Virus record (IMG/VR): IMGVR_UViG_3300011116_000846
Location: 1 to 35,043 of that record
Strand: one strand, 5' to 3'
DNA from: a virus
DNA: 35,043 bases
This document shows positions 12,415-34,448 of this stretch, piece by piece. Below the pieces are notes generated by a model. The model saw only the letters and a program-made list of their open reading frames with translations. It was not told the DNA's origin and did not search any database. Within the stretch, counting starts at the first letter, position 1. The number at the start of each line of letters is the position of its first letter. A program made the position numbers and the translations under genes.

Positions 12415-13119
12415 TTATTTTTTTTTTATGAAAGATATTAAACTAGGCCATATAAAATTTTTATATCCACTAACGCCTATTTCAGTAACACACGATTCAA
12501 TATTTCTTTTTATATTATCTATATCACTTTTATATAAATATTTAGTTTCTAAAATTTTGTTATTATTATTAGAAAATTCGTTCAATAAATCAGTAGTTAA
12601 TGTATCTCCCGGTTCAATTACTTCATAGCCATATAACGTTTTCCATTGACCGCTACATGAATGTAAATCTTCAATAACATAATATCCGTTAGGTTTAACT
12701 AAACTAAACAAATGTTTTAGAGAAATTTGTTGTTGCTTCATAGTATGTCCCCCATCATCTATAATAATATCAAAATTTTCTCCATACAATTCTTTAAATT
12801 TATTCAAATCGTTTGAATTTTCTTGACTACCCTTAAATAATACAGATCTATTTAAATTATTACATTTTTTTTGCAGCTCTTTGAATTCGGATACATAGTT
12901 TGACCGATCTAATTCATTAAATACATCTATCCCATATACAGTTGCATTTGGAAAATATTCTAACCACATTCTATGAGATTTACCAGTTTCTACACCTATT
13001 TCTAAAATTTTTGTTACATTTAAACGAATCGAATCAAACCTACTTTCGTAATGTTTAATATATCCTAAATCAAATTTATCAGCTTTATATTCAATAGATA
13101 ATTCTTGTAATGTTTTCAT
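12415..13119 (-). CDS. Macrocin/mycinamicin O-methyltransferase-like SAM methyltransferase
   Basis: This protein has 234 residues. The start (ELSIEYKADKFDLGYIKHYESRFD) and ILEIGVETGKSHRMWLEYFPNATVYGIDV at about residues 38-66 match macrolide-sugar O-methyltransferases of the MycE/TylF group ('YeADK...h.Y...y', 'iLEiGv..G.S..mW..yfp.a.i.GiD'). FDIIIDDGGHTMKQQQISL at about 115-133 provides the metal-binding acidic and histidine residues. It probably O-methylates a sugar. The stop of the carbamoyltransferase gene overlaps its ATG (TAATG, 1 base), and its end abuts the DUF5672 gene. Confidence 0.8.
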   Translation of the reverse strand: MKTLQELSIEYKADKFDLGYIKHYESRFDSIRLNVTKILEIGVETGKSHRMWLEYFPNATVYGIDVFNELDRSNYVSEFKELQKKCNNLNRSVLFKGSQENSNDLNKFKELYGENFDIIIDDGGHTMKQQQISLKHLFSLVKPNGYYVIEDLHSCSGQWKTLYGYEVIEPGDTLTTDLLNEFSNNNNKILETKYLYKSDIDNIKRNIESCVTEIGVSGYKNFIWPSLISFIKKK

Positions 13120-14747
13120 TATTTTTTCTTTAAAAGTAAATTAATATCCGTAAAATACAAATAATCTATATTAGTATTTAAAAAACAATTAATAGCATGG
13201 TACGGAGTTTCTACAATTGGTTCTCTATCATTAAAACTCGTATTTAATACAATCGGTACTCCTGTTTTATTTTTAAATTTTTTAATAAAATTGTAATACC
13301 ATTTATTACTTTCTTCAGTAACGGTTTGTAATCTGGCAGTGCCATCAAAATGAACCACCGCTGGCACCAAATGTTTTTTATCTTCATTAAATGGTATTGC
13401 AAAGCTCATATAAGGACTATCAATATCATATTTAAACCATTTATTAACATCTTCACGTAAAATAGAAGGTGCAAACGGTCTGAACCATTGGCGATGTTTT
13501 ATTTTTTTATTAACAATATCTTTTGTTTCAATATATCTGGGATCTGCAATAATACTTCTATTGCCCAATGCCCGACGACCTGATTCCGATTTTCCTCCAA
13601 ATACAGAAACTATTTTTTTATTTATTAAAGCATCTACTACAAAATCATCAGATGCTTTTTCTATATAAATTTTATCTTTAAAAAATTCTATACAATTTAA
13701 TATATCTTTTGTAGAATACAAATATCCTAAATACGGAGTTTGATTTTGAGTATTATTATATATTCTTGGATTATTTAATACATGGTGCCACAAATATCTA
13801 GACGAACCTAATGATAATCCACCATCATATGGCACAGGGTCACAAAATACATTTATACCAGGAAACCAATCAAATATTTTTCCCATAGCAATACAATTTA
13901 AACTAACTCCGCCCGACATACATAGATTTTTTGGATTATATTTATCAATGTATTTTTTTAAAATATTCCTAATTAGAATTTCTGTTTCTTGTTGTAACGA
14001 AGCTGCAATATCAAAACAATTTTGTTCATTACTATCAGCTTCTTTTTTAAGAAATTCATAATCAGTTGGACCCCAATTTATGTGAGTAGTTAAATCATGT
14101 ATATTTTTAAAATATTCCTTATATTTATTAGGATTTCCTAAAGCAGCCATTCCCATTACCGTTCCGGCTTGATCACCTTGAGGAGATCTCCATGTACCTA
14201 AACCGAATATTTTACTTGTAACATTTGCCCAATAAAATCCGATATTAACATAGGTGGATGAAATAAAATCTACTGGTTCAATTTTATTTTCCTTTCCTAT
14301 CCAAATAGTAGTACAAGTTTTAAAGCTACCATTAGCTTCTCGATCTATATGACTTTTATGATGAGGACTGCCATCGGTATAATCTAAGCCCCCACCATCA
14401 ATAGTAACAATTAAAGCTTCATTAAAATTACTAGTAAAAAATGCATTTGCTGCGTGCCCCTGATGGTGGCCGGTTATATATGATATACCTCCTCTATCTT
14501 CTGCAATTTTTTCTAATTTATTATATGAATCCATATAATTATTTAATTGCATACCACCCCCCCTGTGAGTAGTTATATGAGTAAAATTAGAAAAATCCGG
14601 ATCTTTCTCTATAAATGCATCCATTGAATTTTCTGTAGCATTTTTTCGTCTAGTATATCTTTCTAATTCTATATGTACTTTCGGTATTCCGTTTTCTATT
14701 ATTGAATACGATGAATCGTGACCGCTATGGAAACCTGCTATTTTCAT
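13119..14747 (-). CDS. NodU/CmcH-type carbamoyltransferase
   Basis: This 542-residue protein is complete. MKIAGFHSGHDSSYSIIENG, ITGHHQGHAANAF (metal-binding histidines) and LIVTIDGGGLDY form the N-terminal Kae1-like ATPase domain. LCMSGGVSLNCIAMGKI and DPVPYDGGLSLGSSRY complete it. ESGRRALGNRSIIADPR, RPFAPSIL, SPYMSF, DGTARLQTV and VLNTSFNDREPIVETP form the YrdC-like carbamoyl-transfer domain. The enzyme makes carbamoyl-AMP from carbamoyl phosphate and ATP, then carbamoylates a hydroxyl, usually on a sugar. All key blocks look intact, so it is likely active. Its neighbours (glycosyltransferases, methyltransferases) suggest a carbamoylated glycan. Confidence 0.92.
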   Translation of the reverse strand: MKIAGFHSGHDSSYSIIENGIPKVHIELERYTRRKNATENSMDAFIEKDPDFSNFTHITTHRGGGMQLNNYMDSYNKLEKIAEDRGGISYITGHHQGHAANAFFTSNFNEALIVTIDGGGLDYTDGSPHHKSHIDREANGSFKTCTTIWIGKENKIEPVDFISSTYVNIGFYWANVTSKIFGLGTWRSPQGDQAGTVMGMAALGNPNKYKEYFKNIHDLTTHINWGPTDYEFLKKEADSNEQNCFDIAASLQQETEILIRNILKKYIDKYNPKNLCMSGGVSLNCIAMGKIFDWFPGINVFCDPVPYDGGLSLGSSRYLWHHVLNNPRIYNNTQNQTPYLGYLYSTKDILNCIEFFKDKIYIEKASDDFVVDALINKKIVSVFGGKSESGRRALGNRSIIADPRYIETKDIVNKKIKHRQWFRPFAPSILREDVNKWFKYDIDSPYMSFAIPFNEDKKHLVPAVVHFDGTARLQTVTEESNKWYYNFIKKFKNKTGVPIVLNTSFNDREPIVETPYHAINCFLNTNIDYLYFTDINLLLKKK

Positions 14748-14757
14748 ATTGTTATTT

Positions 14758-15501
14758 TTAAAATTCTAAATAATGTTTTTGTACATTTTCGTGTCCTAAA
14801 TGTAAAATAATTTCATTTTTACATCCAACAAATCCATTACCTACACCCCATTGAATAGGCATAGAATATGGGTAAATTCCCGTTTCCCATGCAGCTCTAC
14901 TCATGTGTAATGGCGCCCTCACATGTTTATGTTTATTTGACATTTGGATACTCATTTCTTCTAAATACCTTCGTGCCCTATCATTTGATGTATCAAAACT
15001 AGTCCACCATAAATCATATGTTAAGATATTTCCTAAACTTTCATCTTCGCCTATATGATAATCTCCATTATTACCTCTAGTATATATAGAATCTACTTTT
15101 ACTAATTGCCGTTCATTCGTAGGAACGCAAATACCAAACTTTTTAGTTATGGGTAATAATGTTCGTACTTGATCTCCTGTAAACATTAAATCAGAATCCA
15201 TAGATATTGCAATATCCGCTTTTGAATCAAGTAAACCACGCGTTTGATAATAATCGCAACAAAACCATCCCCAATATTTATGTTTTCGATCAAATGGTGT
15301 GGAATTTTCGCTTACTAAACGTATTTCTATATCAGAATACATATTAGATAAATATGTTTGATCAGTATATAATACTATTTTAGCATCTGGAAAATATTGT
15401 TTAACTGAGCTATATGTAGGGTCTAATCTAGACATATTAAATTCTAAATTATTATTGTTTTTCCTTGGGCCGAATTCGGCAAATATAATTTCAACTTTCA
15501 T
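14758..15501 (-). CDS. Putative GT-A glycosyltransferase
   Basis: This protein has 247 residues. The DxD motif is in IAISMDSDLMFTGD at about residues 97-110, after KYWGWFCCDYYQTRGLL. The C-terminal part (YPYSMPIQWGVGNGFVGCKNE) carries a glycine-rich loop where GT-A enzymes hold the acceptor, and a final HLGHENV supplies a metal-binding histidine. I do not recognise a named family. It overlaps the GT9 gene upstream by 4 bases and the two may act in sequence. Confidence 0.65.
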   Translation of the reverse strand: MKVEIIFAEFGPRKNNNNLEFNMSRLDPTYSSVKQYFPDAKIVLYTDQTYLSNMYSDIEIRLVSENSTPFDRKHKYWGWFCCDYYQTRGLLDSKADIAISMDSDLMFTGDQVRTLLPITKKFGICVPTNERQLVKVDSIYTRGNNGDYHIGEDESLGNILTYDLWWTSFDTSNDRARRYLEEMSIQMSNKHKHVRAPLHMSRAAWETGIYPYSMPIQWGVGNGFVGCKNEIILHLGHENVQKHYLEF

Positions 15502-16622
15502 AATGTAATTAATTTTTTCATTTGACTATAAACATCTTCTGCGGTAATTAAACTCATACATTTTGTATCATAAGGACATTTAAATTGATTATGGCACATT
15601 AAACATTCAAGCTCTTCACGAACCATTTTAATTCCTAACCCAAATAAATCTGTTTCTTTATAAGGTCCCATACCAAAAAATGCAATAATTTTTTTACTCA
15701 ATGAAATTGCTACATGCAAAGCCATAGTATCGCTAGTAACTATAATATCGCATAAGTCTATTAGATGACAAAACTCTTTAATATTATATTCTTCCGTAGT
15801 ATTAATAATTTTATTAGAATTAAATGTATCATATAAATTTTTATTTCTTTCTCGCTCTGATTTAGCTCCTGTTAAAATAATTCTATTATGATTATCTAAT
15901 AATAATAACTCAATTAATTTTTGATAACCTTCATATGTCCATTTTTTACTCGGATATATTGGACCGCAGCCTGTATTTAAAATTATAATACATTCTTTTG
16001 GCTGTATATTATACTTTTCATAAAATTTTTCTTTAAACAATAAACTTTCACTCTTATCTAAAAATAAATTAGGTTTTTCATGTTCATAATTTAATTTCGA
16101 AATATCAAATAGCATTTCAATGTATGTTTTTATATTAGTACGTTTAGCCCCCCAATTGTCCAAACAAATATTATATTGATATTCAGCTTCTTTATTTAAA
16201 GGAACAACCTTACCATCAGCGGACATACCATATCCCAATTTTTCATTAGAATTGAGTAACATTATTATAGAGTTAGCTCTAGCATCTTTATCTAAATTAA
16301 TAATAATATCAAACTTTTGAGGTTGTAATATACGAATATTTTCTTCAGTATATGGTATTATATTATTAATAAATATATTGTTTTCTAAAGACCATTTGTG
16401 CTCAAAATCTACAACCCACGATAGCTCGCAATTTGGATATTTTTTTTTAATACCTTCTGCAATAGGAGTGCTACGAATTACATCACCCAACGCATCCAAT
16501 TTGATTATTAAAATTCTTTTATCGTAGGGATTAAAGTGATTACATATTTTACAATCCCACGATTTATCAATCCAATAGTATTTGCAAGGCCTATCCCCCT
16601 TAAAATAGCGACATGATATCAT
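15498..16622 (-). CDS. GT9 heptosyltransferase-like glycosyltransferase with cysteine-rich ends
   Basis: This protein has 374 residues. An N-terminal cysteine cluster (CRYFKGDRPC, CKICNHF) precedes the GT9 start ILIIKLDALGDVIRSTPIAEGI at about residues 38-59. ILNTGCGPIYPSKKWTYEGYQKL and ILTGAKSERERN lie in the C-terminal Rossmann domain. VTSDTMALHVAISLSKKIIAFFGMGP is the GT9 donor-binding block. A second cysteine group near the C-terminus (CLMCHNQFKCPYDTKC) may pair with the first to bind zinc. GT9 enzymes move ADP-heptose to LPS core. HldE- and HldD-like genes lie just upstream, which fits heptose transfer. It is preceded by the only clear promoter-like site in the island. Confidence 0.87.
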   Translation of the reverse strand: MISCRYFKGDRPCKYYWIDKSWDCKICNHFNPYDKRILIIKLDALGDVIRSTPIAEGIKKKYPNCELSWVVDFEHKWSLENNIFINNIIPYTEENIRILQPQKFDIIINLDKDARANSIIMLLNSNEKLGYGMSADGKVVPLNKEAEYQYNICLDNWGAKRTNIKTYIEMLFDISKLNYEHEKPNLFLDKSESLLFKEKFYEKYNIQPKECIIILNTGCGPIYPSKKWTYEGYQKLIELLLLDNHNRIILTGAKSERERNKNLYDTFNSNKIINTTEEYNIKEFCHLIDLCDIIVTSDTMALHVAISLSKKIIAFFGMGPYKETDLFGLGIKMVREELECLMCHNQFKCPYDTKCMSLITAEDVYSQMKKLITL

Positions 16623-16693: not shown

Positions 16694-17503
16694 TTAAAAA
16701 TTATTTAAATATTTAATATATTCACTAAGACCATCTTCTAATTTAAATTTTGGTTTCCAATCTGGCATCCATTTTGATTTATTACTAATTGTGTAAAATT
16801 GATATCCAACTGGTATTTTTTTTATATCTGTATATATGTAATTTATTTTCATAAATTCTAAAATTTTTTCAAATGATTTGGATTCACCACTACCAACTTC
16901 AAAATATTTACCACAGCACTTTTCATAGTTATTAAGCGCGTGTAAGTTAGCGTTTACTACATCCTCTATATATACAAAATCTCTAGTTGGTTTTTGTGGA
17001 AATAACTCCACTATTTTATTATTAATATGTTTATTATATGATTGGTATATCATAGATGCCATCAACCCCTTATTTTCTTCACCGGGACCATATACATTAA
17101 AATAACGTAAGGCAACATAATTATTTGAAATTACATATTGCTCTGCTGTATATTTACTCCAACCGTACAAGTTCGATGGATATGATTTATTAATACCATA
17201 ATTTGCGGCTGATGATGAATAAATCAATTTTGAGTTATTAATATTTGACCAGTCAACTAAAATTTTTGTAAATTGGAAATTCATTTCCATAATGTGGTTT
17301 ATATTTGTTTCTAACGTATTAGAACAAGCACCGACATGAAAAATAACAGTTGGTTTAAACTTGTTTAATTTACTAACAAGTTTTTTTTCCCACGTTTTGT
17401 GTAAAAATATATCCTCATTAATTTCTAAAATGTTATAATTTTTAAATTTATTTAGTATGTTTTTACCAATAAATCCATAAGTTCCAGTTATAAGTATCTT
17501 CAT
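16694..17503 (-). CDS. HldD-like nucleotide-sugar 6-epimerase (ADP-heptose epimerase type)
   Basis: This protein has 269 residues; HldD is usually about 310. TGTYGFIGKN at residues 6-15 is the cofactor site. SSSAANYG at about 96-103 and YGWSKYTAE at 113-121 give the catalytic serine, Tyr and Lys. YFNVYGPGEENKGLMAS at 134-150 is the close HldD hallmark ('YFNVYGp.E..Kg.MaS'), and RDFVYIEDVVNANLHAL follows. IPVGYQFYTISNKSKW matches 'p..l.gkYQ.fT.ad...l'. HldD converts ADP-D-glycero-manno-heptose to the L-glycero form. The shorter length suggests a trimmed phage version or a related substrate. It follows the kinase gene with a 4-base overlap. Confidence 0.8.
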   Translation of the reverse strand: MKILITGTYGFIGKNILNKFKNYNILEINEDIFLHKTWEKKLVSKLNKFKPTVIFHVGACSNTLETNINHIMEMNFQFTKILVDWSNINNSKLIYSSSAANYGINKSYPSNLYGWSKYTAEQYVISNNYVALRYFNVYGPGEENKGLMASMIYQSYNKHINNKIVELFPQKPTRDFVYIEDVVNANLHALNNYEKCCGKYFEVGSGESKSFEKILEFMKINYIYTDIKKIPVGYQFYTISNKSKWMPDWKPKFKLEDGLSEYIKYLNNF

Positions 17504-18228
17504 ATTAATGTTACACCCCTATGTTTAACTACTTCAGATGCTTTTTTGTTTGCAAATTTAATCGCATCTTCTATATTGTTAGTATTTAAGTATTCAATTA
17601 CTAAAGCAGCCATAAAAGAATCACCCGCCCCAGACAAATCTTTAACTTCTACTTTTTTTACTGGATATGTTTTTTCTTTATATACCGCTCCCGACGAACC
17701 ATTTGTCATAATTATTTTTTCTTTTAATGCGGTAGTCAAATATTTTTTGGAGTTATTATATTCAAAATTATTAATTTTAATAAACCTCGCATCTAATGCC
17801 CAGTCCCCCAAAATTTTTTTAGTATCAATAAATACATTAGTATGGTTTGAACAAATATATTTAATATCACTCTCAGATAAAAACCCTTTATTATAATCAG
17901 ATACTACAATTAATTTGTAGTTTTTAAAATCAATAGATTGTAAATCAACCACATCGGTGCTATTGGGTGTATCTACTCTAAAAAACATATGATTACTATC
18001 ATTGTGAACATATCGTGTTTTAGTTATATTAACCCAGTCACTATTTGTTATGATATCACAATCTTTATATAATTGAATATTTCTTTGTACATTTTTAGCC
18101 ATTCCACCATTTTCTGATTGATTAACTATACTTAATACCGGTATTGGAACATCGGGCGCTAAGCGTGTTGCATTACAATAGACATATATATCTCTACAAC
18201 TATCTCCTATTACTAATATGCTTTTCAT
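17500..18228 (-). CDS. PfkB-family sugar kinase, HldE kinase-domain-like
   Basis: This protein has 242 residues, short against about 320 for the HldE kinase domain. ILVIGDSCRDIYVY at 4-17, then TRLAPDVPIPVLSI and NGGMAKNV (40-47), matches HldE ('GD...D.y..g...RisPEAPvPv', 'GGAaNVa.N'). SDYNKGFLS and the C-terminal DLSGAGDSFMAALV, with catalytic Asp at residue 203, are the PfkB motifs. HldE phosphorylates D-glycero-manno-heptose 7-phosphate at C1. The cytidylyl/adenylyltransferase domain of bifunctional HldE is absent here, so ADP transfer would need a host enzyme. Its partner is the HldD-like gene downstream. Confidence 0.78.
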   Translation of the reverse strand: MKSILVIGDSCRDIYVYCNATRLAPDVPIPVLSIVNQSENGGMAKNVQRNIQLYKDCDIITNSDWVNITKTRYVHNDSNHMFFRVDTPNSTDVVDLQSIDFKNYKLIVVSDYNKGFLSESDIKYICSNHTNVFIDTKKILGDWALDARFIKINNFEYNNSKKYLTTALKEKIIMTNGSSGAVYKEKTYPVKKVEVKDLSGAGDSFMAALVIEYLNTNNIEDAIKFANKKASEVVKHRGVTLI

Positions 18229-19430
18229 TAATATCTAGATTTTCGTTCAATTATAATTGCAGGTCGCCCACTTTCTTTAGCACCTTTAAAGGCTTTTAAT
18301 ACTTCAACACCAGTTACTGGGTCTATTACTGGGAAGCTAACTAATTCTCGTAATACATTAGTGAAGTCTTGATGATGAGTTGGGCCTGAATAAAATGGTC
18401 CTCCAAATGCTTCAACCGCTCGAATAATTACTGGAACTTTAAATTCTCCGTGTGATATTCGTTCAATTTTATCAATATGGTTTCCAATAGCGTCCATTGC
18501 AACTAACATAAAATCGTGTCGCTCAAAATATAATACTGGAGTAAATCCTTCAAATGACATTCCAATAGCCAATCCAGACATTAAATTTTCAGCAACGGGA
18601 GTTTCTAATTTTTGACTATTATCTACTCCTTTTAAAGTGCCCATTGCATCGCCACGAGCTACGTTATACCCAATAAAGATAGCACCTTGATCACCTAATT
18701 CAGTCATAGCTTGATTCATAGCTTCTTTATAACTAATATCTAAGTTATCCAACTCTTCAAATTTAGGATATTCAAACGGCGTAAGTGATGGAAAATATTC
18801 TTCATCAGTTTTCTTAATGGTTTTTGATAAATCAATCATACCAGGCTTACGAGCATGTGGATATGTAATATCATAGTAATATTTGATTACTGATGGGGAG
18901 CTCCATTGATAGTCGGCTGCTTTACCCCAACGCTCCTCGTTTGTCGATTCAACTGATCTATTATTGTTCTCAATAATAAATTTACATGGAAGATTAAATC
19001 CATCCACATATCTTATAGCTTCATAAAGATGACCAGAGTCTTCTGTCCCATCACCCACGAAACACCAAACTTTTTTATTTAATCCTTTCTTTTTAAGTGC
19101 CCATGCTATACCAGCCGCGATTGCGGGTGTACCCCCTATAATAGCCGAACAAAAGAAATTTCTTTTACGATCGTATATAAACATACTACGACCATTTAAA
19201 ATACGATTTTCAACTACATCGGGCGGAATTCCATGTAAAAGTGCATGATAGTGGCTTCTATGATTTGAAATTACATAGTCTCCCTCTTTGATATCTTTGA
19301 AGATTTCAATTAATTGATCTTCATTTCCTCCTGACAAATGAAATAGGAATGGCAATTTATTATCTAAATAAAGGTCGCCGATTCGGTTTTCAAATGCAAT
19401 TAGTTCTTCTTTAGTCCATTGTTTTTTCAT
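18228..19430 (-). CDS. Fused ThDP-dependent enzyme (2-oxoacid dehydrogenase E1 alpha + beta type)
   Basis: This protein has 400 residues. Residues 1 to about 190 are an E1-alpha-like ThDP-binding domain: SHYHALLHGI, SAIIGGTPAIAAGIAWAL, and GDGTEDSGHLYEAI (126-139), with the closing ENNN at 154-157 (the GDG-to-NN ThDP/Mg motif). Residues from about 225 on are an E1-beta-like pyrimidine domain: ETPVAENLMSGLAIGMSFEG, VPVIIRAVEAFGG and GPTHHQDF. The third domain of E1-beta (transketolase C-terminal) is missing. No E2 or E3 partner is present, so this is probably not a dehydrogenase complex. It may decarboxylate or transfer a two-carbon unit in unusual sugar synthesis, with the two oxidoreductases upstream. 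That role is inference. Confidence 0.82.
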   Translation of the reverse strand: MKKQWTKEELIAFENRIGDLYLDNKLPFLFHLSGGNEDQLIEIFKDIKEGDYVISNHRSHYHALLHGIPPDVVENRILNGRSMFIYDRKRNFFCSAIIGGTPAIAAGIAWALKKKGLNKKVWCFVGDGTEDSGHLYEAIRYVDGFNLPCKFIIENNNRSVESTNEERWGKAADYQWSSPSVIKYYYDITYPHARKPGMIDLSKTIKKTDEEYFPSLTPFEYPKFEELDNLDISYKEAMNQAMTELGDQGAIFIGYNVARGDAMGTLKGVDNSQKLETPVAENLMSGLAIGMSFEGFTPVLYFERHDFMLVAMDAIGNHIDKIERISHGEFKVPVIIRAVEAFGGPFYSGPTHHQDFTNVLRELVSFPVIDPVTGVEVLKAFKGAKESGRPAIIIERKSRY

Positions 19431-19435
19431 ATTAT

Positions 19436-20449
19436 TTATTTATTTATGTTAATTATAATTCTTCCTGCTTTTCCTGAACGCAACAAGTCAAATGCTTTAT
19501 TAATATCATTCAAATCAAAACGATGCGTTATAATTTTTGTAATATCTAATAAACCTGCTTTATACAATTTAATATATCTAGGTATGTCTTCTGTTGGATT
19601 GGTTTTTCCTCCTTGAGTTGCTTTAATTGTTTTTCCAATTCCATCAAATAATTTATTTGCGGTTGGTATTTCTAACTTTTGATCAGGTTTAGGCTGACCT
19701 ACCAAAATTAATCTACCATTGCCTGATAAATATGTTGTTGCGTTTGCAATAACTTCTGGTATTCCTGTTGTGTCAATAATAACATCAAATTTTTGATTAA
19801 TATTTTCTGTCTTAGAGTTAATAAAGTGCGTTGCACCAACTTCTAAACAAATACCACGTTTTTCTTCAACAATATCAACAGCTACAATTGGGAACGCACT
19901 TACTAATTTTGCCCCTTGAATTAAATTAAGACCTACACCCCCAGAACCAATAATCATTACACTTTCTCCAAATTTAATTTCTGCTTCATTTGTAACAACT
20001 CCTAATGCGGTGGTCAATCCACAGCCCAATAAAGCACATAGCTCTTCAGGAGTATCATTAGGTACTGTAGTTAAACGATTTTCTGATACAATTGAATATT
20101 CGCTTAAAGTAGTAACCTTACCGCTTGATATTTCTTTTCCGTTATATATGTATTTTGGAAACGGGGCTTCGATACCTTCGCTTTTTCTCCAATGCATAAC
20201 TACTTTATCCCCGACTTTAACGGTATTCACTCCTAATCCTACTTCTTGAACAATACCACATCCTTCGTGCCCTAATAAATGTGGAAGAAAATTTTCATTT
20301 CCTTTTAATCCTGCAATTTCTTGTAATTGCGCTCCACACAATCCACTAACAATATTTTTAACTAATACTTGTCCGTATTGTAATGGGGTTAGACTAACAT
20401 CTGCAATAGATAAGTCACTATTTAATTTTTCTAATATTACGGCTTTCAT
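19436..20449 (-). CDS. Zinc-type medium-chain alcohol dehydrogenase
   Basis: This protein has 337 residues. The catalytic zinc ligands are visible as C38 (SGLCGAQLQ) and H61-E62 (LGHEGCGIVQEVG). The structural-zinc loop of classical enzymes (four cysteines) is replaced by a stretch around EAPFPKYIYNGKEIS with no cysteines. MIIGSGGVGLNLIQGAKL is the NAD(P)-binding loop and VAVDIVEEKRG holds the acidic residue favouring NAD. It would oxidise or reduce a sugar alcohol or aldehyde. It lies between the fused ThDP enzyme (5 bases downstream) and an SDR (4-base overlap), so the three probably form one pathway step set. Confidence 0.85.
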   Translation of the reverse strand: MKAVILEKLNSDLSIADVSLTPLQYGQVLVKNIVSGLCGAQLQEIAGLKGNENFLPHLLGHEGCGIVQEVGLGVNTVKVGDKVVMHWRKSEGIEAPFPKYIYNGKEISSGKVTTLSEYSIVSENRLTTVPNDTPEELCALLGCGLTTALGVVTNEAEIKFGESVMIIGSGGVGLNLIQGAKLVSAFPIVAVDIVEEKRGICLEVGATHFINSKTENINQKFDVIIDTTGIPEVIANATTYLSGNGRLILVGQPKPDQKLEIPTANKLFDGIGKTIKATQGGKTNPTEDIPRYIKLYKAGLLDITKIITHRFDLNDINKAFDLLRSGKAGRIIININK

Positions 20450-21096
20450 TTTATGTTTCTAATTTCAAATGATGATATATTGTATTTATTTGTATCAAGA
20501 AGTAAATTAAAAATAAAATTAGCTACTTCGTCAGTATCCATAAAATTTTCAAATCCTTCTCGCTCTTTAGTTATATTTGTTTTCATTGCGCCTACATAAC
20601 AATCAACTACTCGAATGTTTGATACTTTTTGATTAATTGACAATGAAGATCCAAAACCTGCTAATCCATATTTTGACGCACAATATATTGATTCTTGATA
20701 GTTTGGATATTTGCCTGCCAACGAATTAACATTTATTAATATACCAAATTTATTTTGTTTAACCAAATTAGAATAAAAGTATTTTGTTAAAATAATTGGA
20801 GCTGTTAAATTTATATTTATCATATCAGAAATTTCTCTATCAGATAGATTAATAAATTCTGTATTTGAATATACAGCAGCGTTATTAATCAAACAGTTAA
20901 TATCATTTTCTTTAAAAAAATTTTCAAAGTTACTAAAATCTAAATCAGCAAAATTCATATTTAATATGGTATCTGAACTTTTTTTTGTCGAATGACCATA
21001 TACAGGTATATTTTTGGATTTTGCTTGTAAATGTAATGAATTTCCTAACCCACCGGTAATACCAGTTATAAATACTTTTGGTTTAAAGGTTTCCAT
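20446..21096 (-). CDS. Short-chain dehydrogenase/reductase
   Basis: This protein has 216 residues, slightly shorter than the usual 240-260. TGITGGLGNS at 11-20 is the TGxxxGxG cofactor motif, and LINNAAVYSN carries NNA. INVNSLAGKYPNYQESIYCASKYGLAGF includes the catalytic Ser, Tyr and Lys (YxxxK as YCASK). VDCYVGAMKTNI is the usual post-catalytic 'PG...T' region. The family reduces or oxidises carbinols and the substrate is unknown. It overlaps the dehydrogenase downstream by 4 bases and the glycosyltransferase upstream by 14 bases. Confidence 0.85.
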   Translation of the reverse strand: METFKPKVFITGITGGLGNSLHLQAKSKNIPVYGHSTKKSSDTILNMNFADLDFSNFENFFKENDINCLINNAAVYSNTEFINLSDREISDMININLTAPIILTKYFYSNLVKQNKFGILINVNSLAGKYPNYQESIYCASKYGLAGFGSSLSINQKVSNIRVVDCYVGAMKTNITKEREGFENFMDTDEVANFIFNLLLDTNKYNISSFEIRNIK

Positions 21097-32316: not shown

Positions 32317-33234
32317 TTACATTAAAATATTTACAAACATTGCCATTACATTTATTTCTTTATCCACCACCAACGAATCCTTATATTGCGCTTCGGCTAT
32401 ATTAACAATTGTAGTTCCAACCTTATTTCCCGCATACTCATCCACCCTTTCATATAGGGTTGAATACAACTTTGTATAATCTCTTACTTTTGAATCTGCC
32501 AATATTTGACGAATCTGAGTAAACTTACTTTTGGTATCTACTCCACTTTTTAAGATATCCACAATTTTTTCGGAATAGGTTGATTCAATGCTAGATTGTT
32601 TATCAATAACCAACCTACCATTAATAACCTGCCGTTGTGCAGCGTTTATTACCCTGCGAATATCGGGGTATCCACTATTAACAATAACCGCAAGGTCTTG
32701 CATTTCAAATTGAATACCCTCATTAATTAAGATATCATTCAACCTTTTAGCCACATCTTTTTTAGTTGGTGGTATAATTTCAAATGTTTGACATCTACTT
32801 TGAATTGGGTCAATAACCTTTTCAGGATAATTACAAGTCAATATAAACCTCGTACTTTTACTAAATGTTTCCATTAGATTACGAAGAGCTGCTTGTGCAT
32901 CTCTTGTTAGGTAATCTGATTCATCCAATATTACTACTTTCCAAGTCCGAAATCCAACCGATGCTGCAAATCCTCTGATTTTCTCTCTTAAAGTATCAAT
33001 ACCCCTTTCATCGGATGCGTTGATATAAAGATAATCACAATCAATAGCATTTACTATAATTTTTGCTAATGTGGTTTTACCAGTCCCTGCCTCACCATGT
33101 AGTAACAAGTGTGGGACATCGTTGTTTTCTATATAAATATTAACTTTTTGTATGATATGTTCATTACCAACATACCCTTCAAGTCCAGACGGCCTATACC
33201 GTTCTACCCATAAGCTATTTTCACTGTTACTCAT
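32317..33234 (-). CDS. 44: Clamp loader large subunit, gp44-like AAA+ ATPase
   Basis: This protein has 305 residues; T4 gp44 is 319. LWVERYRPSGLEGYVGN at 8-24 is the clamp-loader start. Walker A is GEAGTGKT (47-54), Walker B is VVILDESD (100-107), and sensor 1 lies near LTCNYPEK. The SRC arginine finger is at 146-148 (QSRCQTFEI). GYPDIRRVINAAQ matches sensor 2. The C-terminal part is the collar domain. It loads the gp45 clamp with gp62. The start has GGAAG directly before the ATG and overlaps the DruA-like stop by 4 bases. Confidence 0.95.
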   Translation of the reverse strand: MSNSENSLWVERYRPSGLEGYVGNEHIIQKVNIYIENNDVPHLLLHGEAGTGKTTLAKIIVNAIDCDYLYINASDERGIDTLREKIRGFAASVGFRTWKVVILDESDYLTRDAQAALRNLMETFSKSTRFILTCNYPEKVIDPIQSRCQTFEIIPPTKKDVAKRLNDILINEGIQFEMQDLAVIVNSGYPDIRRVINAAQRQVINGRLVIDKQSSIESTYSEKIVDILKSGVDTKSKFTQIRQILADSKVRDYTKLYSTLYERVDEYAGNKVGTTIVNIAEAQYKDSLVVDKEINVMAMFVNILM

Positions 33235-34448
33235 CTTCCTACTTCTTTTAAATATGTTTCTTTTGCTTGTTCCCAGCTCATTCCTATGATATCTACATAA
33301 AAAAGTGCTTCGGGTTTAATTCTCCCTTCATCAAACAGGGTGGTGTATCTGCGAATTGCTTTAGGTTTCCACCAATTTATAGTATATTCATCACCTTTAA
33401 CAAACTTATCCTTCATAACCAACTTATCTTCTTCTATTTCCCCCTTCAGAAATTCGTTACCATTTTCGTAGAATGGTGCAAGATACACCCCCCGTTTGAA
33501 TCCGTGATCGTAAGTATCAGATTTGATACCAAGCTCTCTATAGATTTGATGTATGATTTTTTGTTTTATCCCACTAACAGGCCCGTTTCTTTCGTAACCC
33601 ATATTCGCACCATTCCTCTCCCTCTCTTCGGTTATCTCCCTCTTATACCAATCTGAATGGTTTTCTTTCAACCATTGATGCCACGGGTCATACACACTAT
33701 CATCGGGCTTAGTACTAATCTTACCCTTACTTTCTCCCAAAGTTTTAAAATGCGGAATACCATTATATTGAGAGTGAATTCCATACAACGAAGTCGTTCC
33801 TAATGCTACCAAAACATCATCATACTTCTTTTTCCAATAATTCCTAACAATTGGTGATGTAGCAAGTGCGGCAATTAACTTACCACCTAAAAAGTTGTAA
33901 CCAAAAGGTTGTGTAGAAACAATCGTAGTTGCGATACTCGTATTGTTTAACTTCCCCTGCTTAAACTTATTATCCTTACTCCACCCAATGTAGGAATCTC
34001 TTACACCCAAAGATGTAATATCAGAACCCAATGAAACCTGTCCTAAAACTTTACCGCTAACTCTATCCTTTATCCATATCTTTACATTTCGGCCAGGATT
34101 AGCAACAAACTCCATTGTATGGATTAGTTTTCGGACTTCTGTCCAGCGAGTAGATTCTTTTGGATTATCATCAACGATTTCTACATAAGGTTCTAATGAT
34201 TCAATTTCTTTTATCGTTAGTTCTTTGTTGTAAATATCCGTTGGAAACCAAAGTGAATCATAGTGGGTAGCGATGGTTGCCTTTTTGGGCATGGTGTTTT
34301 TAAGGTCACCATTCCATTCTTGCCACTTTTTATATAAAGTCTGCTCTTCAACTGACATTGAAGATAGATAGTTCAAATTATCAATGAACTTCTTCTTTTC
34401 AACATCGTAGTTGAATTCAGGCTTCGCTGGTTCAGTATCCCAAAACAT
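33231..34448 (-). CDS. DruA/DUF4338-like protein in the replication operon
   Basis: This protein has 405 residues. The core at about 120-245 reads SGKVLGQVSLGSDITSLGVR, DSYIGWS, NNTSI, TQPFGYNFLGGKLIAALATS, YWKKKYDDVLVALGTTSLYG, then YNGIPHFKTLGESKGK. This matches the DUF4338 pattern found in DruA of the Druantia defence system ('lG...f....l..RD..IGW', 'n...N..fli.p', 'l..w..kyg....l.eT', 'f.GtcY...nw...G.t.G'). The C-terminal part (GVYLAPFYENGNEFLKGE, WWKPKAIRRYTTLFDEG) is less familiar. It lies between gp45 (1 base upstream) and gp44 (4-base overlap), so it is expressed with the replisome and is probably part of DNA replication or recombination. DruA itself has no established enzymatic activity known to me. 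Confidence 0.68.
   Translation of the reverse strand: MFWDTEPAKPEFNYDVEKKKFIDNLNYLSSMSVEEQTLYKKWQEWNGDLKNTMPKKATIATHYDSLWFPTDIYNKELTIKEIESLEPYVEIVDDNPKESTRWTEVRKLIHTMEFVANPGRNVKIWIKDRVSGKVLGQVSLGSDITSLGVRDSYIGWSKDNKFKQGKLNNTSIATTIVSTQPFGYNFLGGKLIAALATSPIVRNYWKKKYDDVLVALGTTSLYGIHSQYNGIPHFKTLGESKGKISTKPDDSVYDPWHQWLKENHSDWYKREITEERERNGANMGYERNGPVSGIKQKIIHQIYRELGIKSDTYDHGFKRGVYLAPFYENGNEFLKGEIEEDKLVMKDKFVKGDEYTINWWKPKAIRRYTTLFDEGRIKPEALFYVDIIGMSWEQAKETYLKEVGR

Follow-up and report, generated by a model that had tools for sequence, protein, structure and literature searches.

Besides YerE, two families of enzymes dependent on thiamine diphosphate (ThDP) add, or are proposed to add, C2 branches to keto-sugars: E1-type pairs and split-gene transketolases (PMC12247030). 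With the E1-type pairs, the new ketone is later reduced, methylated, oxidised or transaminated (PMC12247030); AviB1/B2, Pau11/12 and EvdU5/EvdS3 are proposed sugar-branching examples (PMC4753412, PMC10338323). For the split-gene transketolase of miharamycin, a preceding oxidoreductase is proposed to make the keto group (PMC12247030). Here we describe a comparable gene arrangement in a T4-like virus. The stretch analysed, referred to as the window, comes from IMG/VR (IMGVR_UViG_3300011116_000846, 35,043 nucleotides); a minus-strand glycan gene cluster fills almost all of this 35-kb virus fragment. Within this cluster, a 400-residue E1-type ThDP enzyme is encoded between a zinc-dependent alcohol dehydrogenase (ADH) and a heptose-type sugar kinase, a set that, judging from sequence, many environmental phages share. 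We propose that this virus-encoded pathway core includes a C–C-forming step and would make a branched or extended heptose-like nucleotide sugar, a reading to which we give about an even chance.

By analogy, the module would work like the known sugar-branching ThDP systems without being an established member of any of them. AviB1/AviB2, Pau11/Pau12, EvdU5/EvdS3 and KbDH-alpha/beta are also E1-family ThDP enzymes in sugar clusters, and the new ketone is reduced or transaminated. These branching pairs are heterodimers resembling pyruvate dehydrogenase (PDH), encoded by two genes in actinobacterial antibiotic clusters and acting on keto-sugars, whereas the phage enzyme is a single 400-residue chain with no third domain and a heptose-type kinase alongside. 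The split-gene transketolases of miharamycin and amipurimycin offer a second likeness, as they combine a sugar oxidoreductase with a split ThDP enzyme proposed to add a hydroxyacetyl group to a keto-sugar. The ThDP position in phages is sometimes taken by a split transketolase-like pair beside the ADH, a likeness by description; the miharamycin and amipurimycin enzymes belong to Streptomyces nucleoside antibiotics, and their function is a proposal. YerE, the yersiniose A synthase of lipopolysaccharide (LPS), likewise depends on ThDP to place a C2 branch on a sugar of a surface glycan, with ketoreduction as the next step, but it is an acetolactate-synthase-type flavoprotein from another ThDP superfamily.

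A compact ThDP enzyme in a tightly coupled gene set

The ThDP enzyme, a proposed C–C ligase, is encoded on the minus strand at 18228–19430. A 5-base gap separates its gene from that of the Zn-dependent ADH of the MDR family (19436–20449, minus strand; 337 residues; Pfam ADH_zinc_N and ADH_N), which overlaps by 4 bases with the gene of a FabG-like short-chain dehydrogenase/reductase (SDR; 20446–21096, minus strand; 216 residues; Pfam adh_short 89.4 bits). On its other side, the ThDP gene overlaps by 1 base with the gene of a short PfkB kinase of the HldE domain I, or heptose-7-phosphate kinase, type (17500–18228, minus strand; Pfam PfkB 61.7 bits). A preliminary description of this DNA had picked out the SDR, ADH and ThDP genes as a tightly coupled set, and the open reading frames (ORFs) match it exactly. 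The ADH, whose nearest PDB chains are class I/III ADHs, carries the catalytic zinc-ligand motif C38, H61, E62 and C143 in 89 of 89 sequences; the SDR triad S125-Y138-K142 is present in 26 of 26, and the GAGD motif of the kinase is invariant.

Two Pfam domains, both above their cut-offs, make up the ThDP enzyme: E1_dh (the PP domain; residues 13–167, 57.7 bits) and Transket_pyr (the PYR domain; residues 232–400, 40.1 bits). Nothing follows Transket_pyr, and Pfam finds no transketolase C-terminal (third) domain in the 400 residues. The protein had been described as an E1-alpha/E1-beta fusion that lacks the E1-beta C-terminal domain; Pfam and the structural model agree, and the alpha part is shortened too, with only profile positions 9–171 of 300 matched. 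An AlphaFold model (mean pLDDT 88.7, pTM 0.91) aligns with PDH E1-beta at a Z-score of 21.7 across 169 residues (within 229–400) and with transketolase at 19.9 across about 359 of the 400 residues, spanning both domains. The transketolase fold is therefore shared, but not the three-domain architecture, as Pfam detects no Transketolase_N. Nor do Pfam TPP_enzyme_N, TPP_enzyme_M or TPP_enzyme_C match at E 0.001, so the acetolactate-synthase-type arrangement of YerE is absent.

Conservation was examined in 54 distinct relatives together with the window enzyme. The metal ligands D127 and N/D156, the catalytic glutamate E281, H352, and the residues H57, R58, H62 and H192 are all retained, so the loss of active-site residues in most relatives, which had been set as a test that could refute the proposal, is not observed. 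E281 aligns with E59 of human E1-beta, and H352 with E1-beta H128. As far as sequence can tell, the window enzyme has E1-type PP and PYR domains with intact ThDP/metal-binding and catalytic residues. A run of four residues, E303-R304-H305-D306, is invariant in the relatives and the window, whereas the same positions read M-T-F-N in human E1-beta; the acceptor pocket may thus be more polar. The gene is under strong purifying selection, with a nonsynonymous divergence (dN) of 0.09–0.12 against a near-saturated synonymous divergence (dS) of 1.3–2.0. The 57 viral relatives, the invariant active-site residues and this selection exclude a chance resemblance.

PDH and other 2-oxoacid dehydrogenase E1 enzymes have an E2-docking C-terminal domain and accompanying E2/E3 genes, neither of which is found here. 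The peripheral subunit-binding domain (PSBD) of E2 docks on the E1-beta C-terminal domain. The E1–E2 PSBD complex 1w85 was among the fold comparisons of the model, and the missing E1-beta C-terminal domain speaks against docking to E2. The preliminary description had reported no E2/E3, and none was seen among the window ORFs, whose translations were read and about half of which were searched with Pfam or NCBIfam profiles. By comparison with these enzymes, the phage protein is most likely a free-standing two-domain carboligase rather than the E1 of a PDH complex.

Constant partners and an interchangeable ThDP gene

A viral scan with the ThDP enzyme gave 57 relatives and a genome scan 10, which reduce to 42 nonredundant loci. 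Each of the 42 has the ADH gene immediately upstream of the ThDP gene, and each also encodes a PfkB/HldE-family protein. An HldD-like epimerase family occurs in 27/42, and a cupin and a small HAD-like protein in 18/42 each. Because the SDR is found in only 7/42, we regard ADH-ThDP-kinase as the conserved unit and the SDR as accessory. The pairing of ADH and ThDP genes in the three-gene set of the preliminary description is thus constant, but its third member is the kinase. The converse test started from the ADH, with the best 80 of 129 loci giving 55 nonredundant ones: a ThDP enzyme stands beside the ADH in 55/55 and a kinase is present in 50/55, four of the five exceptions being contigs that end within 2 kb of the ADH. 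A search by kinase pattern alone gave few loci, as the degenerate patterns were too strict. In locus L153 (6846–9710; ADH and transketolase-like pair), the sole clear kinase-less case, a methyltransferase-like gene occupies the kinase position. In a subtype (L009, L015, L048 and L058), the fused ThDP enzyme is orthologous, but the ADH is a different one (about 39% identity) and the kinase, a full-length HldE domain I protein, is encoded upstream.

Three non-orthologous kinds of ThDP enzyme fill the position beside the ADH in the 55 loci: the fused mini-E1 (41), a full-length E1 alpha/beta pair (6 nonredundant sister loci) and a split transketolase-like pair (8). The last consists of chains of 245 and 160 residues (Transketolase_N 95.6 bits, Transket_pyr 80.2 bits), and its loci carry the SDR in 8/8. 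In a maximum-likelihood tree, the kinases of all ThDP-bearing loci fall in one clade (support 100/95). The kinases of cyanophages P-SSM2, S-SSM7, S-CAM3 and Sf-FS3 lie outside it, and in these four phages the sequence examined around the heptose-like gene sets contained neither an ADH nor a ThDP gene. Within the clade the kind of ThDP enzyme switches repeatedly: the starred branches require at least five changes for the fused form, three for the transketolase-like pair and two for the E1 pair. As three unrelated kinds of enzyme fill the position, what is conserved is a ThDP-dependent step and not one gene. The simplest reading is that the pathway requires a single such step, which any of the three families can supply.

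The same block occurs in cultured phages. S-SM2 and P-TIM68 carry the series ADH, ThDP enzyme, kinase, HldD and HldE nucleotidyltransferase, annotated in part as 'zinc-containing alcohol dehydrogenase', 'transketolase central region' and 'putative carbohydrate kinase'. The layout, previously thought to be undescribed in phages, is therefore present in known genomes; the open-access literature yielded no paper that assigns the phage ThDP-ADH unit or a pathway combining it with heptose genes. Seven LPS genes (T4-GC 260, 265, 266, 304, 305, 307 and 308) were found to co-occur in P-SSM2, S-SM2 and S-SSM7 by Sullivan et al. 2010, who left their function open (PMC3037559). This set has the kinase, HldE nucleotidyltransferase, cupin and HldD-like families in common with our loci (PMC3037559), but in P-SSM2 and S-SSM7 no ADH-ThDP unit lies near it.

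The heptose-like context and a proposed pathway

The preliminary description had passed over the heptose-type neighbours (kinase, HldD-like epimerase and GT9 transferase), which give the best clue to the pathway. Downstream of the kinase, with a 4-base overlap, lies the gene of an HldD-like NAD-dependent epimerase (16694–17503, minus strand; Pfam Epimerase 100 bits), followed by that of a GT9-family glycosyltransferase, the heptosyltransferase family (15498–16622, minus strand; Pfam Glyco_transf_9 65.7 bits against a gathering cut-off of 22). These three proteins resemble the enzymes of the ADP-L-glycero-D-manno-heptose pathway (GmhA, HldE, GmhB, HldD) and GT9 best, as do the nucleotidyltransferase and HAD proteins of relatives. 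The best NCBIfam match of the kinase is rfaE_dom_I (93 bits, below the cut-off of 345), and its best solved relative is the D-beta-D-heptose 7-phosphate kinase 4e84 (E 1.4e-8). The epimerase matches heptose_epim best (182.5 bits, below the cut-off of 274.6), and the GT9 protein, likely the transferase of the finished sugar, matches heptosyltransferases II and I, again below threshold. The window differs from the ADP-heptose pathway in these sub-threshold scores, in having no GmhA and in the additional ThDP-ADH step; neither a GmhA isomerase nor an HldE nucleotidyltransferase was seen among the ORFs of the 35-kb fragment. We suggest that the unit supplies or modifies a sugar of heptose-like type, which need not be a heptose.

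Cyanophage relatives add an HldE-type nucleotidyltransferase, an HAD-like protein and a cupin to the set. The cupin is labelled 'cysteine dioxygenase' in cyanophage LPS sets, but the best fold matches of its model are D-lyxose isomerases and it carries an HxH...K.E metal-site motif (L003 23913–24290). The model suggests a ketol isomerase, which could plausibly substitute for GmhA. ORFs of about 108 residues (L003 21983–22294 and 23624–23953; the family also occurs in L238–L241) are labelled 'phosphoheptose isomerase' in cyanophages, a label we reject as they contain no SIS domain. Of the two copies in S-SM2, one weakly matches HAD phosphatases, and the proteins may act like GmhB. We also considered that ADH-ThDP replaces GmhA. 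This idea is weakened by the heptose-like sets of cyanophages that lack a ThDP gene and by L067, a Prochlorococcus single-cell contig in which ADH-ThDP faces a GmhB-HldE-HldD series that has GmhA as its neighbour.

The proposal draws on analogy and comparative genomics, and builds on the genes, their linkage, the active-site residues, the fold and the replacement of the ThDP gene, which are observed directly. For the pathway itself we infer the C–C-forming reaction, its donor and acceptor, the order of steps and the product. The ThDP enzyme would transfer two carbons to the carbonyl of a sugar or sugar phosphate, as an acetyl group taken from pyruvate or as a hydroxyacetyl group taken from hydroxypyruvate or a ketose, giving a C2-branched or chain-extended sugar. 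The ADH would make the acceptor carbonyl by oxidising a sugar hydroxyl, or else reduce the new ketone, with the SDR as an optional extra reductase. The HldE-type kinase would then phosphorylate the anomeric hydroxyl, and a nucleotidyltransferase, encoded in many relatives and outside this window, would activate the sugar. Finally, the HldD-like epimerase would adjust one centre and the GT9 enzyme attach the sugar. C2 transfer to a sugar carbonyl is favoured by the alternation of E1 and transketolase families beside the ADH and by the aminotransferases of cousin loci, and the constant kinase favours the sugar-phosphate over the nucleotide-sugar level. The unit lies in a glycan cluster, and the branched or chain-extended sugar named in the preliminary description fits best as the class of product.

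Several observations weigh against this proposal. The kinase, nucleotidyltransferase and epimerase all score below the NCBIfam cut-offs of the heptose models, which leaves room for a sugar other than a heptose. No nucleotidyltransferase, HAD protein or cupin isomerase of the types found in relatives was seen in the 35-kb fragment. At L153, a locus of the transketolase type, no PfkB-type kinase is encoded within 4.5 kb. There is also a tension in the chemistry: the precedent branching enzymes use nucleotide-linked 4- or 3-keto sugars, yet the constant kinase points to a sugar phosphate. In one alternative, C2 transfer takes place at the nucleotide-sugar level after activation, as with AviB1/AviB2 or YerE, the ADH being the ketoreductase of the branch and the kinase part of a separate pathway in the cluster. 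Documented sugar-branching ThDP enzymes do use keto-sugars, a CDP-keto-sugar in the case of YerE, and RmlB-like dehydratase or epimerase genes lie nearby in 24/42 loci. We nevertheless find this version unlikely, given the kinase in all 42 ThDP-anchored and 50 of the 55 ADH-anchored loci (four of the five exceptions lying near contig ends) and a kinase tree that parts ThDP from non-ThDP loci, which probably places the kinase in the same route.

A doubtful but more serious alternative is de novo supply of a ketose phosphate, with the ThDP enzyme serving the pathway as its own transketolase or heptulose-phosphate synthase. The cupin isomerase (in place of GmhA), kinase, HAD protein, nucleotidyltransferase and HldD-like epimerase would convert this compound further, and the ADH would make or remove a ketone. 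The constant kinase, the replacement of the mini-E1 by split transketolase-like enzymes, and relatives that have the D-lyxose-isomerase-like cupin, HldE nucleotidyltransferase and HAD protein but mostly no GmhA-type SIS gene are all in accord with it. However, hosts already produce sedoheptulose 7-phosphate and E1-type enzymes normally use 2-oxoacids; in the stretches examined, the heptose-like sets of the four cyanophages P-SSM2, S-SSM7, S-CAM3 and Sf-FS3 lack both ThDP and ADH genes, and in L067, where ADH-ThDP stands beside a complete GmhA-HldE-GmhB-HldD set, such supply would be redundant. It is improbable that the enzyme instead decarboxylates a 2-oxoacid to an aldehyde or acyloin, which the ADH, with or without the SDR, turns into an alcohol to be attached to a sugar, in the manner of the phosphonopyruvate or sulfopyruvate decarboxylases that supply alcohol dehydrogenases. 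The ThDP and ADH genes directly adjoin, and two-domain ThDP decarboxylases without a third domain exist; these have the reverse domain order, however, neither a PEP mutase nor a sulfonate gene was seen, the partner that never varies is a sugar kinase, and the exchange for transketolase-like pairs is hard to square with simple decarboxylation. That cyanophages carry central carbon genes such as talC, and that the database names are generic, could point to an auxiliary metabolic gene, a remnant or free E1 or transketolase boosting host central carbon metabolism during infection. We consider this highly improbable, as the genes are embedded in glycan clusters with ADH and kinase as constant partners, E2/E3 and the E1-beta C-terminal domain are missing, and the M-T-F-N positions of human E1-beta are an invariant E-R-H-D.

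Returning to C2 transfer onto a sugar, we tentatively advance a broader view that is possible rather than probable: a phage cassette that edits the carbon skeleton of sugars, with ADH and heptose-type kinase fixed and the ThDP position interchangeable among three families, would yield branched or higher-carbon heptose-like sugars undescribed in viruses, via an unusually small free-standing E1-type carboligase. If C2 transfer onto a sugar is right, viruses build new sugar skeletons by C–C bond formation, beyond decorating host glycans; until now, such chemistry has been associated with O-antigens (yersiniose, for example) and with antibiotics of actinobacteria. The fused 400-residue enzymes and their replacements would then form a natural test set for the convergence of E1-type and transketolase-type enzymes on one reaction, and compact carboligases of this kind could serve in the synthesis of tertiary alcohols or higher sugars. 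The pathway would also give a role to some genes of the cyanophage LPS set, which in 2010 was regarded as possible 'stuffer DNA' (PMC3037559). Because S-SM2 and P-TIM68 are cultured, the prediction is directly testable.

Wider relatives and neighbouring genes

A search with the PP domain shows that 462 viral stretches encode relatives. In the best 80 of these, which reduce to 49 nonredundant loci, the best matches are split forms with separate PP (about 200 residues) and PYR (about 180 residues) chains. At 28–43% identity, they represent cousins outside the window's unit. A DegT aminotransferase accompanies them in 36/49 loci and a B12-type radical SAM protein in 33/49. The kinase is of the mini-PfkB type in 11/49 and of the HddA-like GHMP type in 8/49, so the split loci, too, show a mini-E1 paired with a predicted heptose-type kinase. 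The combination of split mini-E1, radical SAM protein, HddA-like GHMP kinase and DegT (L158–L237, for example L165 5494–10282) is a second viral sugar cassette, apparently undescribed. In a 735-kb uncultured phage (LR756503; L074 7382–9600), the radical SAM gene lies between separate PYR and PP genes.

In the genomes sampled, the fused gene is very rare in cells. Besides the seed genomes, about 200 genomes of the Prochlorococcus family and about 190 of the Kaiserbacteria phylum contained no further full-length match and one split PP/PYR form. A plasmid search with the ThDP protein returned generic E1 proteins only, below 60% identity, and no annotated bacterial pathway. Matches in bacterial metagenome-assembled genomes (L061–L064, L066 and L069) may be viral or misbinned and are not used as proof of cellular origin. 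One of them, L063, labelled Bifidobacterium breve, has the full block of HldE nucleotidyltransferase, cupin, ADH, ThDP enzyme, kinase, HldD-like protein and HAD protein; the species label seems doubtful for genes of this kind. L067 looks chromosomal, with GmhA-, MutY-, AhcY- and SSB-like genes predicted on its flanks. For the small proteins often encoded next to the ADH (SM2_195/199-type), Pfam gave neither a GT9 match nor any other.

Further along the window cluster, a NodU/CmcH-type carbamoyltransferase (13119–14747, minus strand; Pfam Carbam_trans_C 209 bits) possibly decorates the sugar, its membership of the pathway being uncertain. In P-SSM2, S-SSM7, S-CAM3 and Sf-FS3, carbamoyltransferases adjoin the heptose-like gene set or are found close to it, and in locus L006 they lie downstream. 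T4-like replication genes occupy the right end of the window. The clamp loader has matches in over 2,600 phage records, the nearest named phage being Microcystis phage Mel-JY01 at 44%. Beside it, a 405-residue protein (33231–34448, minus strand) contains a DruA domain (PF14236, 76.6 bits), which is named after the Druantia defence system.

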